From: a virus
Reading direction: 5' to 3' (one strand)
IMG/VR virus record: IMGVR_UViG_3300044695_003800
Span: 1 to 23,185 of that record
DNA length: 23,185 bases
Below are positions 4,307 through 21,899 of this stretch, in pieces. Within the stretch, counting starts at the first letter, position 1. Every line of letters begins with the position of its first letter. Under the pieces are notes generated by a model. That model saw only the letters and a program-made list of their open reading frames with translations, searched no databases and was not told the origin of the DNA. The translations under genes were made by a program, and so were the position numbers.

Positions 4307-5485
4307 ATGGACGTACCACTGAACTCTCCGCTGACCAATCCGGCGTCGCAGCCTGACTTTGGCAACTCGATTCTCGACGCATTCAATCGCATGGGAGCCG
4401 AAGCCGATGAGGGCATATCGACTCCGGTTACCGAGGAACCTAAGAAAGCCACAACGCCTGCGGCATCCGAAACGACCAAGCCCTCCAGCGGAGCAAGCAA
4501 GTCCGAGAAGGACATCGAGCGTTTGTTTGGCTCTTCGAAGAAGCAGGCAGCCGCCGCCGAAGTTCCGACTTCTACGGACGCTGATTCCGATATTCCCGAG
4601 ACGATCAAGTCTACGAAAGCCGCTGATGCGTTCCGTAAGATCAAGGAGGAGAAGGCTCAGTTGGCCAAGCAACTGGACGAGCTGAAGGCTGGCAAGACCG
4701 CCAATCCGAACTTCGAGTCGCAGCTCAAGACCTTGCAGGAGGAGCGTGACGCGCTTTCCGAGCGTGTTCGATTGCTCGACATCGAGCGTCACCCTGAGTT
4801 CGTCAAGAAGTACGAGGGTAAGATCAATGGCGTCTTCGAATCGGTGAAGGGTCTTGTCGGCACCGATGGAGAACGGCTTGTTGGCCTACTCAAGTCGCCC
4901 GAGAGCGACTACCGGAACTCGCAGATCGACGATATCGTTGACGGTCTTTCGCCGTCCAAGAAGGCCAAGCTCGGCGCGCTAATCGTTCGCTACGACGAGA
5001 TTAACGGCGAGAAGGCGGCGGAGATGTCCGAGGCTAAGTCCGATTACGACGCCATCATCTCGAAGTATCAGCAGGACAACGAGCAGGGTACGAAGGCTGC
5101 ATTGGAGTCGGCCAGTAAGACCTGGGCGAAGGTGAGCGAGAATGCTCGCGCTCTTGAAATCTTCGAACCGCGTGAGGGCGATGAGGAATGGAATGGCGAG
5201 CTGAATCAGCGTCTCAGCCTCGCGCAGCAGATCTTCAATGGTGAGAACAGTGAAGAAGACCTCGCCAAGGCCGCTCTTTGGGCCGCTGCCGCGCCGAAAT
5301 ACCGTGAGCTTCTCTATTCTCAGGTTGAGGTAAATAAACGCCTACAAGCCGAATTGGCGAAGTATCGTGGCAGCGAGCCGGGAGTTAGCTCGAAGGCTAT
5401 CAGCGGTGGTTCTCGTCCTGCGAACACGAACAACGCCAAGAGCGAGGACTTCGTTGCGAGCGTTCTGAAGTCGTTAGGACGCTGA
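4307..5485 (+). CDS. Scaffold-like capsid assembly protein
   Basis: A 392-residue acidic, highly charged protein. Residues ~1-100 are Pro/Ser/Thr/Ala-rich and low complexity. A long coiled coil runs from about 105 to 165, rich in EEKAQLAKQLDEL and LQEERDALSERVRLL. A helical middle and a second helical stretch near the end follow, and the protein ends with FVASVLKSLGR. Disordered N-terminus, coiled coil and basic/hydrophobic C-terminal helix are typical of phage scaffolding proteins that guide procapsid assembly. The start is AACAAATTATG without a Shine-Dalgarno. The gene is the last of the plus-strand unit and is followed by a strong terminator. The capsid candidate is not next to it but on the other strand at 9249-10496. 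Confidence 0.6.
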   Translation: MDVPLNSPLTNPASQPDFGNSILDAFNRMGAEADEGISTPVTEEPKKATTPAASETTKPSSGASKSEKDIERLFGSSKKQAAAAEVPTSTDADSDIPETIKSTKAADAFRKIKEEKAQLAKQLDELKAGKTANPNFESQLKTLQEERDALSERVRLLDIERHPEFVKKYEGKINGVFESVKGLVGTDGERLVGLLKSPESDYRNSQIDDIVDGLSPSKKAKLGALIVRYDEINGEKAAEMSEAKSDYDAIISKYQQDNEQGTKAALESASKTWAKVSENARALEIFEPREGDEEWNGELNQRLSLAQQIFNGENSEEDLAKAALWAAAAPKYRELLYSQVEVNKRLQAELAKYRGSEPGVSSKAISGGSRPANTNNAKSEDFVASVLKSLGR

Positions 5486-9248: not shown

Positions 9249-10496
9249 TTACGAGCAGATGATGGTCGTGAGTGCGCCTGTGCAACGACGGAAGATGATG
9301 GTCATTCCTTGATTGGTGAACACTGGCTCAATTGCGTGAACGAACTCAGCGTAGTGCTGACCCTTCTTCTCCAGCGGATCGGCGCAATCCACATCGAGCT
9401 TGTAGGCACCAGTCACCCACTGCCACTCGCCCATGTAGTTGGTCGGCATCCAGCTCAAGTCGCCAACACGGTTCACGGGGCGAACGATATGGCTCTTGAT
9501 GACGTACGGAGTCGGGATGAACGCACCCTCGTACAAGGCGGTCGTCCAGCTCGGGTTGACGCTGAACACAGTACCCTTCGTGCCGGAGGTGCTGGTGAAG
9601 GGCTGGATCAGCGTGTACTTGCCGCCAGCGTAGCTGAAGCGGGGCGGGAACAGATTCGGAATGTGGCGGAAGTTCTTGATGACCCGATTCGCGCCAATCC
9701 GCTTGAGCAGCTCAGCACCCGGACCAGAACCCATATCGGCGAAGCGCAGATCCTCGCGCAGCGCGGCATTGTTCTGGGCGATACGCTGGGAAGCCTCCAT
9801 GCCGATGTAGAGCGGGAACACCGGACCGTCGCTGGAGAAGCTGATGAAGCCGGAGCTATCAGGATTCGTCGCGCCATTGCGGATCAGCGTGGCGGCGGCG
9901 ACATCGAGCATCTCCTGCGTCAACTCGGAGGTAGCCTGATTCAACGCCTGACCAGCGGAGCCGGTCTGAATCCAGGGCAGCTCGTTCACACCGCTCGGAA
10001 TCGTCTCCACCTGAGTGAAGGACGAGTCGGCCACCGCCTTGATGGCGTACTTGGCGAACATGTTTTGGTAGCGAGTCTCCCACGAACGCTGAGCGCGGAT
10101 CGAGAGCTTCTCCAGATACACGCGAAGGAACGCCTCGACGCGATGGTCGAAGGTCAGATCGTCCTTACACAGGAGCGGACCTTTAAGAGCGAAACGCTCA
10201 GGCCCCCAGGTGACAGCGTTGTAGCCGACCGGAACGTCATTGTAGGTGACATCGCAAGCACCACCGTTATCGCCGGGGTTGCCGGACGCGAGGGTGATGG
10301 CAGACCACTCCTCAGCCGCAGTCGGCTCAATCGAGGTGGTGGTGAACGAGGTCTGGGTCAGACCGGTACCCTGAGGATACTCGCCGCGCTCAATGAGGTT
10401 GAGCCACATCGAACGGTACGAGGCGCGTTTGTAAACGTCCTGCGCGAGCGACTCAGTCGCAACGGCGAAGGCGTTAAAGACATTGGGACAAGACAT
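9249..10496 (-). CDS. Probable major capsid protein
   Basis: A 415-residue protein from ATG 10496. It starts MSCPNVFNAFA, has an early WLNLIERGEYPQG segment, a Gly/Thr-rich loop, a long helix-rich stretch (FDHRVEAFLRVYLEKLSIRAQRSWE, quoted to show the spine-helix pattern only) and a beta-rich C-terminal half with NYMGEWQWVTG near 360. Length, the N-arm and helix pattern, an own terminator and long structured leader, and adjacent TerS-like and small capsid-side genes all point to an HK97-fold major capsid protein of a less studied phage group. There is no Shine-Dalgarno before the ATG. Assignment rests on context and composition rather than on a diagnostic motif. Confidence 0.65.
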   Translation of the reverse strand: MSCPNVFNAFAVATESLAQDVYKRASYRSMWLNLIERGEYPQGTGLTQTSFTTTSIEPTAAEEWSAITLASGNPGDNGGACDVTYNDVPVGYNAVTWGPERFALKGPLLCKDDLTFDHRVEAFLRVYLEKLSIRAQRSWETRYQNMFAKYAIKAVADSSFTQVETIPSGVNELPWIQTGSAGQALNQATSELTQEMLDVAAATLIRNGATNPDSSGFISFSSDGPVFPLYIGMEASQRIAQNNAALREDLRFADMGSGPGAELLKRIGANRVIKNFRHIPNLFPPRFSYAGGKYTLIQPFTSTSGTKGTVFSVNPSWTTALYEGAFIPTPYVIKSHIVRPVNRVGDLSWMPTNYMGEWQWVTGAYKLDVDCADPLEKKGQHYAEFVHAIEPVFTNQGMTIIFRRCTGALTTIICS

Positions 10497-10526
10497 GAGA
10501 TGAAATGAATTAAACCGACGTTATCT

Positions 10527-10680
10527 ATCGGTAGGCCATCCTCCCCATCACACGATGGTCGATTCGACCCACCTTCTTACCGATGCGGAGCGTCATTGCC
10601 GCTTAGACAGTTTGCTGTGGACGACCAATCCACGTTCACGTTTAAGGTCGATGAGCGGACTGACGCACAACAATGACGCT
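10527..10680 (-). ncRNA. Two-domain structured leader before the capsid gene
   Basis: Between the PD-(D/E)XK-like gene (ends 10689) and the capsid ATG (10496) lies 190 bases of non-coding sequence that folds well on the minus strand. Domain A: a perfect 10-bp closing stem (10671-10680 with 10589-10598), an inner 5-bp stem (10654-10658 with 10599-10603), a GTGGA/TCCAC hairpin (10617-10621, 10629-10633) and a 5-base complement between that hairpin loop (10622-10626) and 10646-10650, which could make a pseudoknot. Domain B: a 7-bp closing stem (10578-10584 with 10527-10533) enclosing two overlapping, mutually exclusive hairpins (10557-10569 and 10545-10558). It may be a cis-regulatory leader or a separate RNA. 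Confidence 0.5.
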
Positions 10681-10688
10681 ATTGTCAA

Positions 10689-11240
10689 TTAGAATAAATT
10701 GGATGATTGGCAATCCGAAGGATTGGCAATTATCTCGTCGGTCAGCTCGCTTTGCTCCGCCATGTAGCTCTTGTAGCCGCACAGTAGGCCAAGTTTGTGT
10801 GGCTGGATGATCTGCTCCCGCGCGATGAAGCCTCTGAATGTGTACGGGCCAGGGAAGCTCCCGGTCATCAGCGCGTAGAAATCCACGCCGTCCGTTTTCC
10901 TACCCTTGCGCGCATCGACCAGCAGCTTGCCATTGTCGTACTTGGTCGTTTTGACATCGATGCGGAATCCCGGCGGAGGCGGGATAACCGCGTCGTAGAG
11001 CGGATGCGGAGGCTCGCGGTTGGTATCCAAATCGGGATACACATTGAAGAGCTTGCAGAACGCTATCTCGCCGCACATTCCCTCCAGATCCACAGTCGCA
11101 GCGTCCTCCGAACTGATCTTCAAGTTCGCCTTGTTGAAATGACGGTTATTGCCGTTTCGATTCCTAGCGACGAAGTGGGCCAACTTCCTCTCAGCGGTTG
11201 TTAAAGATACAGTTTGACCAATTTTGATTTTATTTAGCAT
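10689..11240 (-). CDS. PD-(D/E)XK nuclease-like phage protein
   Basis: A 183-residue protein from ATG 11240; a TTG two codons upstream is an alternative. The sequence has a helix with GMCGEIAFCKLF, then YDAVIPPP, and RIDVKTTKYDNGKLLV. The order Glu ... Asp ... (I)DVK, with the last Asp-x-Lys on a strand, is the PD-(D/E)XK active-site pattern. Such proteins in phages can be resolvases, restriction-like or packaging-associated nucleases. It lies between the TerS-like gene and the capsid gene, so a packaging-associated nuclease is one option. Metal-binding and fold assignment are inferred from motif order only. Confidence 0.5.
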   Translation of the reverse strand: MLNKIKIGQTVSLTTAERKLAHFVARNRNGNNRHFNKANLKISSEDAATVDLEGMCGEIAFCKLFNVYPDLDTNREPPHPLYDAVIPPPPGFRIDVKTTKYDNGKLLVDARKGRKTDGVDFYALMTGSFPGPYTFRGFIAREQIIQPHKLGLLCGYKSYMAEQSELTDEIIANPSDCQSSNLF

Positions 11241-11299
11241 GGTCAAAAAGGTGGAAAATTTTTGAGGGGGGTATCGTAAACGAAGCCCACCCGCAAAGG

Positions 11300-11340
11300 G
11301 GGCCGGCCCTCCGCCAGTCTGCCGCCGATTCTGCCGCCGG
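11300..11340. other. GC-rich palindrome and direct repeats between TerS-like and nuclease-like genes
   Basis: The gap 11241-11434 is non-coding. It contains a 10-bp palindrome GGGCCGGCCC (11300-11309), followed by three CCGCC words and a 9-bp direct repeat CTGCCGCCG at 11319-11327 and 11331-11339. A G6 run lies nearby and a TATAAT-like -10 on the minus strand at 11402-11397, without a good -35. Packaging sites (cos or pac) often lie beside terS, so this is a candidate, but nothing here proves it. Confidence 0.3.
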
Positions 11341-11434: not shown

Positions 11435-11878
11435 TCACTTCGTTTCGGATTCGTTCGTGACGCTCACTTCGAATGCGCGGTCCGGCATTGATCCGAGTAA
11501 GTTAATACTCACGCTCGCTTGTTCGCCAGCTTCACTCCAGCCAAACACAAGCGCGGAGCGTTTGGCAACGCTCCCGAGTATTTGCTCCCGTGTTGATTCG
11601 TCTTTTATCCCGTCCAAGTCATACCCATTGACGCGTTCAATCGTTGACGCGGCATCTTCGGCAAGCTTCGAACGAACGATTGCTGACAGCGCTTCCAACG
11701 ATTGAGTTTTCTTTTCAGTGCAAATCGTTTGCATTTGAGCCTTCATCTTTGTGATTCCCTCACGACTGGCTTTCGTCTGCAACGTTGCCTGCGATAGTTG
11801 CAAATCGTTTGCAATTGTCTTCCATTCCATCCCTGACAGGTACAGGGACTTTGCATGCTCCCATTGATCTTTCGTCAC
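11435..11878 (-). CDS. Helix-turn-helix protein, candidate terminase small subunit
   Basis: A 147-residue protein if read from GTG 11878; the frame is open to a GTG at 11959, but that extension covers two palindromes and looks non-coding (Trp/His/Cys-rich). The N-terminus has an HTH pattern: WEHAKSLYLSGMEWKTIANDL, then LSQATLQTKASREGI, as in phage terminase small subunits and related DNA-binding proteins. The rest is helical and ends in a short strand-rich segment. TerS selects the packaging site on phage DNA. The large subunit is not in this window, so a transcriptional regulator remains possible. Two copies of a 15-bp palindrome lie inside the gene. Confidence 0.5.
   Translation of the reverse strand: MTKDQWEHAKSLYLSGMEWKTIANDLQLSQATLQTKASREGITKMKAQMQTICTEKKTQSLEALSAIVRSKLAEDAASTIERVNGYDLDGIKDESTREQILGSVAKRSALVFGWSEAGEQASVSINLLGSMPDRAFEVSVTNESETK
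11719..11813. repeat. Two identical 15-bp inverted-repeat elements inside the TerS-like gene
   Basis: TGCAAATCGTTTGCA (6-3-6 inverted repeat) occurs at 11719-11733 and again at 11799-11813, 80 bp apart. On the coding strand the copies are read in different frames (one gives MQTIC, the other IANDLQ), so protein conservation cannot explain the identity. They may be binding sites for this HTH protein, as pac sites are in terS genes of several phages, or an operator pair. Confidence 0.6.
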
Positions 11879-11883
11879 GTTGA

Positions 11884-11940
11884 CTTTGTGCCACAAAGCA
11901 TGCCAAGCGTCCAAACAAAAACACCACAACCTGTTGTGGT
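11884..11940. promoter_or_regulatory. Two palindromes upstream of the TerS-like start
   Basis: CTTTGTG-C-CACAAAG lies at 11884-11898 (7-1-7) and ACCACAAC-CT-GTTGTGGT at 11923-11940 (8-2-8). Both are perfect and sit just upstream of GTG 11878 on the minus strand. They could be operators in the divergent control region between the minus-strand unit and the plus-strand genes from 12139, or hairpins in the leader RNA. The rest of the gap to 12138 is AT-rich; TTGCAA and CATAGT spaced 17 bases apart (about 12101-12129) may be a weak plus-strand promoter. Confidence 0.5.
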
Positions 11941-12138
11941 CCTTATCTTGCAACACCACTACATCTTGTATGCCACTTTATCGTTAAATTTCGCATTTTT
12001 ATTTGTTCCTAGGGTCATGACAGCACCCTGTTTTCCGATTTTGACGCTGTCTAGTTCAACCCTCCCATCACACTTTTCTCAAAATATTTCAAAATAAATC
12101 TTGCAAGCGACAGGCTTTCAGCCCATAGTGTGTCTGTC

Positions 12139-18908: not shown

Positions 18909-19187
18909 ATGAAAGTTTTTACGGCCAAGCAAACAGCCGCGATGCTGCAAATCTGCACCGAGACGCTTCGGCGTATCGTTCGCACCGACGGCATCCAGCA
19001 CCGGAGAATTGGCCGACGCATTTTGTTCACTGAAGCCGACATCGCGGCGATTCTTGAGAGTCGAGCGATGACCGGAGCCGTGAACCCCTACGCACCAAGA
19101 AAACAAAAACAACAAACCGAGAATACAAATGAGCAGCAGCAACCTAGTTCCGACATCACCGCAACCTCTGAGTCCGGCCAGTCCTGA
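18909..19187 (+). CDS. Excisionase/MerR-like DNA-binding protein
   Basis: A 92-residue protein. Residues 4-50 follow the HTH_17/excisionase pattern: FTAKQTAAMLQICTETLRRI, then a wing HRRIGRRILFTEADIAAIL. Such small proteins bind DNA as phage Xis or as transcription regulators. The C-terminus (~55-92) is Gln/Thr/Ser-rich and disordered and overlaps the start of the next gene by 59 bases. With no integrase visible, a regulator of early transcription is as likely as excision. Confidence 0.7.
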   Translation: MKVFTAKQTAAMLQICTETLRRIVRTDGIQHRRIGRRILFTEADIAAILESRAMTGAVNPYAPRKQKQQTENTNEQQQPSSDITATSESGQS

Positions 19188-19938
19188 CTTCTACGACCGC
19201 ATCGACAGTCCGATGGATGCGGTGAAGACGATGGGCGATTGGATAGCGCATTCCGGCATGTTCGGCTGCGTCAAGCCTGAGCAAGGATACGTCCTGGCTC
19301 TCGAATGCATCGCCAGCCGTATGACTCCGCTTTCATGGAAGCGCGAGAATCACCTGATCAATGGCAACATCACCATGAAATCGGAGAGCATGCTTTCCGG
19401 TCTGATGAATGCCGGTTGGGACGTTGACTGGATTCAGTTCGACGCCATCGCCGCCATCGCCGACTTCTCCAAAGGCGCGAAGAAGGTCCGCGTGTCATTC
19501 ACAAGCGACGATGCGAAGCAGGCAGGTTTGCTTCCCGCGAAAGCTGGCAGCGGTTGGGCCAAGTTTCCCGCTGAGATGCTCAGAGCGCGTGTCATCAGCA
19601 AGGCGACAAGGATGCTCGATCCGCGAATCACGCAAGGCCGCTACACGCCTGAGGAGGTGGCCGACTTCTCTGCAACGCCGTCAACACCCGCTCCGACCGC
19701 TTCAACGCGCCAGACGGTCAATGTGACGCCGGAACCGTCATTCTCGCTGGTCGAGAAACTGGAGCAGATTCTTGAGCCACATTCCGACATCGCCAATGCG
19801 TTTTTGCTGTCGAAGAACCTGATCAAGGAAGGTCAGAACTTCCGCGATGTCAGCACCAAGGTGGCCAACATGATCATCGCCGACAGCGACAGTTTCCTGA
19901 TCAAGGCTAAGGCGTTTTCCGAACCGACCATCGAATGA
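19129..19938 (+). CDS. RecT-like single-strand annealing protein
   Basis: A 269-residue protein. The core shows FGCVKPEQGYVLALECIASRMTPLSW (residues ~45-70), KSESMLSGLMNAGWDVDW (84-101), DDAKQAGLLPAKAGSGWAKFPAEMLRARVISKATRML (127-163, in part) and YTPEEVADF (172-180). This order matches RecT/Red-beta-type annealing proteins of phages. The C-terminal ~80 residues are Pro/Thr-rich then helical. It should coat ssDNA and anneal complementary strands, working with the RecE-type nuclease whose ATG overlaps its stop. ATG 19129 is chosen because of its TACAAATG context; a later start near SPMDAVKTM is possible. Confidence 0.7.
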   Translation: MSSSNLVPTSPQPLSPASPDFYDRIDSPMDAVKTMGDWIAHSGMFGCVKPEQGYVLALECIASRMTPLSWKRENHLINGNITMKSESMLSGLMNAGWDVDWIQFDAIAAIADFSKGAKKVRVSFTSDDAKQAGLLPAKAGSGWAKFPAEMLRARVISKATRMLDPRITQGRYTPEEVADFSATPSTPAPTASTRQTVNVTPEPSFSLVEKLEQILEPHSDIANAFLLSKNLIKEGQNFRDVSTKVANMIIADSDSFLIKAKAFSEPTIE

Positions 19939-20729
19939 GCATTCTAAACCGCCACGTTAATTTCGACATGGCTGCTGAGAAGTACCATGCCGTTGACGCT
20001 CTCTCGAAAAGCATGATGTCCAAGATCCTCAAGTCGCCAGCGCACTACAAAGCCGCGCTGGAGGAGCATCAGGAGCCGACGAAGGCTATGCAGATGGGTA
20101 CGGCGATTCACACCGCTGTTCTCGAACCGCACTTGTACTCGCAGGTCGTAGCTGTCGTTCCGCCGGATATCGATGGCAGGACGAAGGAAGGCAAGGCATG
20201 GAAAGAGGCGCATAAGAGCCGTATCCACATGACTCACGCCGAAGACATCGATGTGCAGGGTGTCGCGAACAGCGTCCGCCGCCATCCGTTCTGGGACATC
20301 ATTCATCTCAATCACAAGATTGAGGCATCTGTCTTCGCTCAAGATGAGGACACTGGCCTACCTCTCAAAGCGCGTCCCGATCTGTGGGTCGAGGATCATA
20401 CGCTTGTCGATGTGAAGACCACCGACGACGCGACGCCCGAGGGTTTCAGCCGCACGGTGACTAGCTTCGGCTACCACATTCAGGCCGCGCACTATCTGGA
20501 GATGACAGGTGCGGAGAACTTCATCTTCGTAGCGGTCGAGCGTAAGGCTCCGTATGCGGTTGGCATCTACAAGCTGGATGCCGAATGGCTTCAGGCCGGT
20601 GCGAACCTGCGTAGGAAAGCCATCACGCTGCTGCACGAATGCAAAGCACTGGACAGTTGGCCAGCCTATCCGACCGCAGTCCAAACCCTTTCTTGCCCAA
20701 AGTGGGTCTTGAATAAGTCAGAGAGCTGA
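19935..20729 (+). CDS. RecE/exonuclease VIII-type PD-(D/E)XK nuclease
   Basis: A 264-residue protein with motifs of the phage exonuclease family (DUF3799-like): MQMGTAIHTAVLEP (52-65) with conserved His59, Glu130, ARPDLWV with Asp149, LVDVKTTDDA with Asp159 and Lys161, and YHIQAAHYLEM (180-190) with Tyr and Gln. It degrades the 5' strand of duplex DNA to expose ssDNA for the annealing protein. The ATGA overlap with the RecT-like gene fits a RecE/RecT pair. It is far shorter than E. coli RecE and equals its C-terminal nuclease domain. Confidence 0.8.
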   Translation: MSILNRHVNFDMAAEKYHAVDALSKSMMSKILKSPAHYKAALEEHQEPTKAMQMGTAIHTAVLEPHLYSQVVAVVPPDIDGRTKEGKAWKEAHKSRIHMTHAEDIDVQGVANSVRRHPFWDIIHLNHKIEASVFAQDEDTGLPLKARPDLWVEDHTLVDVKTTDDATPEGFSRTVTSFGYHIQAAHYLEMTGAENFIFVAVERKAPYAVGIYKLDAEWLQAGANLRRKAITLLHECKALDSWPAYPTAVQTLSCPKWVLNKSES

Positions 20730-20753
20730 AACCAAAATCGAAACCTAACAATT

Positions 20754-21182
20754 ATGTTCCAAGTAAACCGTAAGGATGCCGGAGGCCGCTACATCGATGC
20801 CGAAGGCGAGTACACCGTCACTCTCACCAAGGTTGAGGAGAACCTCGATCCGAAGGGCCGCGAGGTCTGCAAGGTGACGTTCACTACGAGCGAAGGTGCC
20901 AGCATCACCGACCGTTTCCTCAATCAGGAGAACACTTGGTTCCGCGTGAACCAGCTTGTCGCCGCCACTAACCACAACGTGCCGGACGGTACGCAGGTTG
21001 ACTTCCTCGGCGTGAAGGGCAGCTATGCCAACTTCCTTAAGTCGATGATCGGTCTGGAGTTGGCCATCACGACTCGCTTTGAGGAGTACGAGTACAACGG
21101 CGAGAAGAAGAAGACTCTTCGCCTCAAGGGCATGAAGGCCGTCGCCCCGGTTGCCGCCGAGACTGAGGAAAAGCCGTTCTAA
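20754..21182 (+). CDS. DUF669-like / SSB-like recombination accessory protein
   Basis: A 142-residue protein. It is beta-rich: GEYTVTLTKVEENLDPKGRE, VTFTTSEGASITDRFL, ELAITTRFEEYEYNGEKKKTLRLKGM in part. This order matches the small DUF669-type proteins that often follow phage recT/recE genes and may bind ssDNA. The C-terminus AAETEEKPF is acidic and ends in Pro-Phe, like the tail of bacterial SSB that binds partner proteins. Start context is AACAATTATG. An actual OB fold is inferred, not shown. Confidence 0.6.
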   Translation: MFQVNRKDAGGRYIDAEGEYTVTLTKVEENLDPKGREVCKVTFTTSEGASITDRFLNQENTWFRVNQLVAATNHNVPDGTQVDFLGVKGSYANFLKSMIGLELAITTRFEEYEYNGEKKKTLRLKGMKAVAPVAAETEEKPF

Positions 21183-21248
21183 GCATCTCAAACACGGAGG
21201 GGAGCGCATTCCGCGATAACGCTCGCAATCAACCTAAAATTCGTATCC

Positions 21249-21899
21249 ATGAGAACAAAACTTGTAGCCATCACCAAACCCCTTGTCGGCGACGGAACTC
21301 TAACCGCCTCCGACTTCATCACGTTCGCCGCCCGTGTCAGCAATCCGTCGAACCAGATGAGCCTCCTCACAGCCCCGAAGTTATTGGCCTACTGCATCAA
21401 GCACGGCCATTGGAGCATCTTCGAGCAGGCGAGCATGACCATCGAGATTCAAACGAGCCGCGCTATCTCCGCCCAAATCCTGCGCCATCGCAGCTTCTGC
21501 TTCCAAGAATTCAGCCAACGCTACGCGCCAAGCGACGCAGCGGAGCCAGTTGAACTCCGCACTCAGGACCGTGTAAACCGCCAGGGAAGCGGCGATGCGT
21601 TTCCGCAGGAGTGGGCCAATGAGGTTGTCGCCAAATCGGTCGATCTGGCGTTCAGGACGTATCGCACTCTGCTTCAGGAGGGTGTGAGCCGCGAAACTGC
21701 TCGCATGGTTCTCCCGCTCTGTACGCAGACGACCTTGTACATGACCGGCAACATCCGCTCATGGATTCATTACTTCGAGCAAAGGTGCGCGAAAGGTACG
21801 CAGAAGGAGCATCGCGACATCGCCATCCAGATCCGTGACGAAATCTTCGCCAAGGAATTCGCGGTCATTCACGAAGCCATTACGAGCGATTCCAAATGA
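21249..21899 (+). CDS. thyX: Flavin-dependent thymidylate synthase ThyX
   Basis: A 216-residue protein with the ThyX signature RHRSFCFQEFSQRY at residues 79-92: RHR binds FAD/dUMP, Ser89 matches the nucleophile-position Ser of known ThyX, and Arg91-Tyr92 are kept. The first Ser of the usual RHRxxS motif is Cys here. The C-terminal IRSWIHYFEQRC and EHRDIAIQIRDEIF segments match the family end that contacts dUMP. It methylates dUMP to dTMP with methylenetetrahydrofolate and NAD(P)H. Full length for the family. Its TGA overlaps the next ATG. Confidence 0.9.
   Translation: MRTKLVAITKPLVGDGTLTASDFITFAARVSNPSNQMSLLTAPKLLAYCIKHGHWSIFEQASMTIEIQTSRAISAQILRHRSFCFQEFSQRYAPSDAAEPVELRTQDRVNRQGSGDAFPQEWANEVVAKSVDLAFRTYRTLLQEGVSRETARMVLPLCTQTTLYMTGNIRSWIHYFEQRCAKGTQKEHRDIAIQIRDEIFAKEFAVIHEAITSDSK

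Follow-up and report, generated by a model that had tools for sequence, protein, structure and literature searches.

A conserved, likely pseudoknotted leader RNA upstream of a probable major capsid gene in an uncultured tailed-phage lineage

The mRNA leader of phage T7 gene 10, the major capsid gene, consists of a short hairpin and a strong Shine-Dalgarno sequence, and supports stability and high translation. In phage T4, gp32 binding nucleates at a pseudoknot in the gene 32 leader and proceeds along a start region that is rich in A+U and contains UUAA(A) repeats (PMC3014915, PMC535899). Regulatory pseudoknots are rare in phage leaders. A 2010 review described that of T4 gene 32 as possibly the sole viral pseudoknot used in translational autoregulation (PMC3014915). 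Structured RNAs of cyanophages, manA and wcaG, are known from metagenomes (PMC2864571). The locus examined here lies in a 23,185-nucleotide stretch of viral DNA (IMG/VR record IMGVR_UViG_3300044695_003800), referred to below as the window, where a 415-residue open reading frame is preceded by a leader that is a real, conserved structured RNA, almost certainly acting in cis. The leader appears to represent an uncatalogued RNA family, present in every relative checked of an uncultured tailed-phage lineage, and no description of it was found in the literature searched. It combines the features of the broad class of cis-regulatory leaders, namely a covarying structure, a 5' leader position and a consistent link to one gene. 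The conserved fold is other than the one drawn in a first-pass annotation of the window, as detailed below.

Conservation, size and context make the 415-residue protein the probable major capsid protein. This label, already applied in the first-pass annotation, is plausible, but the protein has no match in Pfam, PHROGs or a PDB sequence search, and AlphaFold2 returned a model with a pLDDT of 27 and no usable capsid fold. At least 330 relatives of the protein were found in IMG/VR, and the 150 full-length relatives compared are 88–100% identical to the window's copy; no named phage carrying it was found. The presence of a large terminase gene in a 45-kb relative places the lineage among the tailed phages. 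The contig of one relative was binned into an Akkermansiaceae MAG, from which the host is possibly a member of the Akkermansiaceae; among 387 genomes searched in that MAG's order, the leader RNA occurred nowhere else.

The leader is linked exclusively to the 415-residue gene. All 284 gene starts with at least 120 nt of upstream sequence (106 distinct leaders; some loci overlap or share a contig) carry GUCUAWGCGG, including those fetched by the protein alone, which form an unbiased subset. Conversely, a pattern describing the leader core retrieved at least 120 stretches and, among the matches listed, all but two chance ones precede the 415-residue protein. An exhaustive search with a second pattern for diverged copies had the same outcome, with two further apparent chance matches, such that in the pattern searches only four chance-like matches (L151, L167, L197 and L198, the last two from the second pattern) precede other genes. 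As the gene (9249–10496) runs on the minus strand, the leader is a minus-strand RNA at 10497–10688. Its features are collected in Table 1.

Table 1 Features of the leader and of the gene that follows it, in window coordinates.
Feature	Coordinates	Strand	Remarks
TTGAC, −35-like block	10684–10688	−	putative promoter role
5' arm of first-pass 10-bp stem, AGCGUCAUUG	10671–10680	−	lineage-specific, outside the conserved RNA
Whole conserved leader RNA	10497–10656	−	from 7 nt 5' of GACC to the last base preceding the start codon
Conserved GACCUUAA	10642–10649	−	its GACC complements the P2 loop
P2 hairpin 5' strand, GUGGAU	10628–10633	−	five significantly covarying pairs in P2
P2 loop, UGGUC	10623–10627	−	likely pseudoknot or loop–loop contact site; invariant, pairing predicted
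P2 hairpin 3' strand, GUCCAC	10617–10622	−	covariation
GUCUAAGCGG	10599–10608	−	9 of 10 bases invariant in alignment A1
P3 5' strand, GCGG, within GUCUAAGCGG	10599–10602	−	
UGAC in P3 loop	10592–10595	−	invariant in alignment A1; complementary to GUC(A) sites
3' arm of first-pass 10-bp stem, CAAUGACGCU	10589–10598	−	overlaps P3 loop
P3 3' strand, CCGC	10585–10588	−	100% of cells paired in alignment A3; GC/GU variation only
P4 5' strand, GGUGGGUC	10566–10573	−	one P4 pair significantly covarying, AU/UA/GC/GU
P4b 5' strand, AUC	10561–10563	−	pairs with GAU at 10538–10540
P5 hairpin, CCAUC-GUGU-GAUGG	10545–10558	−	one significantly covarying pair, CG/UA/AU
P4 3' strand, GGCCUACC	10530–10537	−	covariation, pairing kept
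Tail motif, AACGUCGGUUUAA	10510–10522	−	precedes AU-rich start region
415-residue probable major capsid protein gene	9249–10496	−	at least 88% identity among 150 full-length relatives; putative role

The conserved fold comprises a core, in which GACCUUAA is followed by P2 with the loop UGGUC and then by GUCUAAGCGG..UGAC..CCGC, and the stacked helices P4 and P5. The window, itself part of the training set, scores 145.5 bits against model R1, and alignments A1 and A3 also support the extent 10497–10656. The UGGUC loop of P2 is present in 66 of 71 minimum-energy folds, and the P2 stem varies freely in sequence with its pairing kept (GCCACGGAU/AUCCGUGGC, GCGUUCG/CGAACGC, GCAUUCAA/UUGAAUGC and GUGGAU/GUCCAC). 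A structure-guided alignment was used because plain RNAalifold on a MAFFT alignment gave mostly invariant helices and missed P2. Covariation was evaluated with our own reimplementation of an R-scape-like method with a tree-simulated null, against which 7 of 27 pairs were significant, five of them in P2 and one each in P4 and P5. When all pairs of columns were scanned, P2, P4 and P5 pairs were among the top matches, together with combinations of adjacent P2 columns that do not base-pair. In 64 leaders aligned by sequence only, 92.8% of cells are paired and 152 double changes occur, versus 85.5% and 58 in shuffles; the model-based alignment of 71 leaders, which is biased towards the structure, yields 94.1% paired cells and 187 double changes versus 68 in shuffles. 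Within P3–P5, G-U combinations outnumber A-C combinations by 65 to 5, which fits an RNA on the capsid strand; in P2, which includes a mismatch column, the counts are 48 and 44. The proposal that the region encodes a two-part structured RNA, more than a simple leader, is thus borne out by covariation above chance and by structure conserved in the relatives.

The most diverged relative, L215, which was left out of the model-building alignment, retains the tail and a core that scores 41.8 bits, and P4/P5 are entirely missing. Identity at 4-fold degenerate sites is 0.50–0.58 in some relatives and falls to 0.34 between the window and L215, with the core invariant. Because L215 keeps the core without P4/P5, the core is taken as the essential part and P4/P5 as an optional domain. 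Low-complexity GATCATCGGTCATCG-type repeats lie close to this diverged capsid locus (L215:2149–2532).

The helices of the first-pass fold could be located on the minus strand, and 10497–10688 folds below shuffles on that strand (−68.7 kcal/mol, z −2.7, range −2.6 to −3.1), compared with a z of −1.6 on the plus strand. The excess stability derives mostly from a perfect 10-bp stem (10671–10680 with 10589–10598), and removal of its 5' arm (leaving 10497–10656) brings z to −1.1. This stem is real in the window, but it is lineage-specific and not conserved, since all ten pairs occur in only 1 of 37 distinct arm combinations among the relatives, most of which form 4–6 pairs. The mean z over the relatives is −1.1 (−1.6 for the reverse complement); folding energy was rejected as proof of structure, the low value in the window being due to the non-conserved stem. 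In the second domain, 71 relatives were compared: the annotated 7-bp closing stem AUCGGUA/UACCGAU is present in 7 of them and the alternative hairpin ACCGA..UCGGU in 11; the stem that is conserved there is P4.

A pseudoknot between a hairpin loop and a downstream segment had also been put forward. A loop pseudoknot is possible, but the clearest partner of UGGUC is the upstream GACC, and GACC and GGUC are both kept in all 71 relatives. The segments GACC, GGUC, GUC and GAC are mutually complementary and invariant in every member, and the core is likely pseudoknotted. The same invariance means that covariation cannot prove pseudoknots or choose between contacts, which may be GACC–GGUC with GUC–GAC or, alternatively, a loop–loop contact GGUCA–UGAC. 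Two other pairings were considered and rejected. The tail GUCG cannot pair with the P3 loop UGAC in the L102 group (tail ACGCAGG) or in L215 (CUCGG), and extension of GUC/GAC by flanking bases places C opposite A in many members.

At the 5' side, 54 of 59 distinct upstream regions have TTGAC 5' of GACC at a near-constant spacing, mostly 39–40 nt. The search for sigma-70 matches with 16–18 nt spacing found none. In one locus (L036, upstream of 2411) the flanking sequence lacks TTGAC and is unrelated to that upstream of other members, which suggests recombination at the leader boundary. Between TTGAC and GACC, a candidate 5' hairpin is clear in some lineages and absent in others (mean z −0.5). 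The variable inverted repeats of this interval, seen for example in the GATACATAAAATGTATC lineage, differ in sequence with pairing kept in some lineages, and may represent either a hairpin at the 5' side of the RNA or an operator in the DNA. At the 3' side, the leader family carries the tail AAYGUCGGUUUAA 5' of the start codon, represented in the window by a single mismatch-free occurrence of AACGUCGGUUUAA. Some members (e.g. L092, L104 and L137) have this motif doubled at ~11-nt spacing, and 13 of 60 distinct tails contain two CGGU copies. The capsid ATG indeed lacks a Shine-Dalgarno sequence, as annotated, but this absence deserves less weight than it was given. Among the window's ORF starts, 25 were checked and only ~4 have a Shine-Dalgarno-like match, so that a missing one is ordinary in this phage; such a match occurs in 1 of 31 distinct leader ends.

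Further elements were observed around the leader. A nearly invariant element, CTTCGTTTACGATACCCCCCTCAAAAATTTT, lies at ~11233–11300 on the minus strand between an HTH ORF (11435–11959, with weak small-terminase matches) and a DUF5843 ORF; its exact 22-mer is present in 238 of 298 loci, and a role as a cos or packaging site is conceivable. In L064:2729–2941 and L073:853–1063 the DUF5843-type gene is missing and the invariant C6 element adjoins the capsid leader directly. The ORF at 4307–5485 (plus strand), opposite in orientation to the probable capsid gene, is scaffold-like by composition alone, with no family match, and the 45-kb relative has an ORF of similar size likewise placed. Exonuclease VIII-like, RecT-like and ThyX genes at 19129–21899 (plus strand) correspond to phage recombination and nucleotide metabolism.

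The leader may well be a control element of the probable capsid mRNA, working in cis through a specific partner on translation or on mRNA lifetime. It would constitute the 5' end of this mRNA, with transcription starting downstream of the conserved TTGAC block and just 5' of GACC. The 5' part folds into a compact core, P2 with its loop UGGUC followed by P3 with UGAC in its loop, probably knotted by pairing of the invariant GACC, GGUC, GUC and GAC with one another. Most relatives have in addition the stacked P4/P5 domain, as covariation shows, and the conserved tail UCGGUUUAA, predicted to be single-stranded, leads into an AU-rich initiation region free of a Shine-Dalgarno sequence. A specific partner is suggested by the invariant unpaired core bases. 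The core might be recognised by a phage protein or by the ribosome, and this binding might set how strongly a presumably very abundant mRNA is translated and how long it persists. Because P4/P5 can be missing, the spacing between core and start codon varies, and the start site is therefore not an obvious target of direct masking. That a capsid or assembly protein controls its own synthesis through this new compact RNA fold, matching capsid supply to assembly, is a doubtful, more specific proposal.

The main rival is a passive 5' stabiliser or translation enhancer that needs no specific partner, its fold protecting an abundant mRNA and leaving the start region accessible. This is considered rather unlikely: the probable 5'-terminal position of the structure on what is presumably a very abundant mRNA, an AU-rich start region lacking a Shine-Dalgarno sequence and the dispensability of P4/P5 in L215 are all compatible with it, whereas the ~35 invariant, largely unpaired bases are not needed by a passive stem. 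The separate phage RNA envisaged in the first-pass annotation is unlikely because no intrinsic terminator (a G+C-rich hairpin followed by a T run) was found at 10400–10800, each record scanned contains one leader copy, and the same ORF always lies directly 3'. Processing from the mRNA into a small RNA, or into an RNA that forms part of the virion or of the packaging motor, might also produce strong conservation and one copy per record, but is improbable given that the conserved tail continues into the start region.

More improbable still is a new self-cleaving ribozyme trimming the mRNA 5' end. The window matches no family of Rfam 15 at gathering scores, a comparison proposed in the first-pass annotation, and at E values up to 10 it returns snoRNA-type chance matches alone; the compact core, the invariant unpaired bases and a possible double pseudoknot would suit a ribozyme, but no ribozyme family matched even at permissive E values and no conserved cleavage-site pattern was identified. 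Hardly credible is a phage-captured relative of the engA cis-regulatory RNA (RF02972). One member, L058, matches the whole engA model with 26.3 bits (E 0.0017), its UGGUCA loop and another, GAC-containing loop lining up, against a cut-off of 46 bits. Matches were obtained in just 3 of 14 members tested, all three sharing one P2 variant and confined to one sub-lineage, and a 415-residue capsid-like ORF lies 3' in all linked loci. Membership was rejected because so few tested members match at all, and the resemblance is regarded as a weak lead only; no engA-like match was found in 142 genomes of the Akkermansiaceae MAG's order, a search that was silent in control genomes too. Just as hard to credit is a DNA element (operator, origin or packaging site) in place of an RNA, since the inverted repeats that some lineages also have between TTGAC and GACC are opposed by the excess of G-U over A-C in P3–P5.

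If the leader controls capsid translation, it would provide a testable case of Shine-Dalgarno-free capsid-dosage control and a portable expression element for such hosts. As in engA RNA, two hairpins follow one another, with GGUCA and GAC in their loops; the downstream gene differs, as the engA family name implies a position upstream of engA genes. Like manA and wcaG it is a phage-carried structured RNA known from metagenomes, whereas those RNAs are linked to metabolic genes and not to a capsid-like gene, and this leader has no Rfam match. In T7 gene 10, too, the capsid mRNA (a probable one in the present case) has a structured 5' leader, but that leader has no pseudoknotted core with invariant loops. 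The nearest working analogue appears to be the T4 gene 32 leader pseudoknot, although the sequence and the gene are different and the present leader has an additional P4/P5 domain, no Shine-Dalgarno sequence and no known binding protein. Both would be phage mRNA leaders in which a pseudoknot, a likely one here, lies 5' of a less structured start region; T4 has UUAA(A) repeats there, and this lineage has the tail UUUAA and an AU-rich start region.
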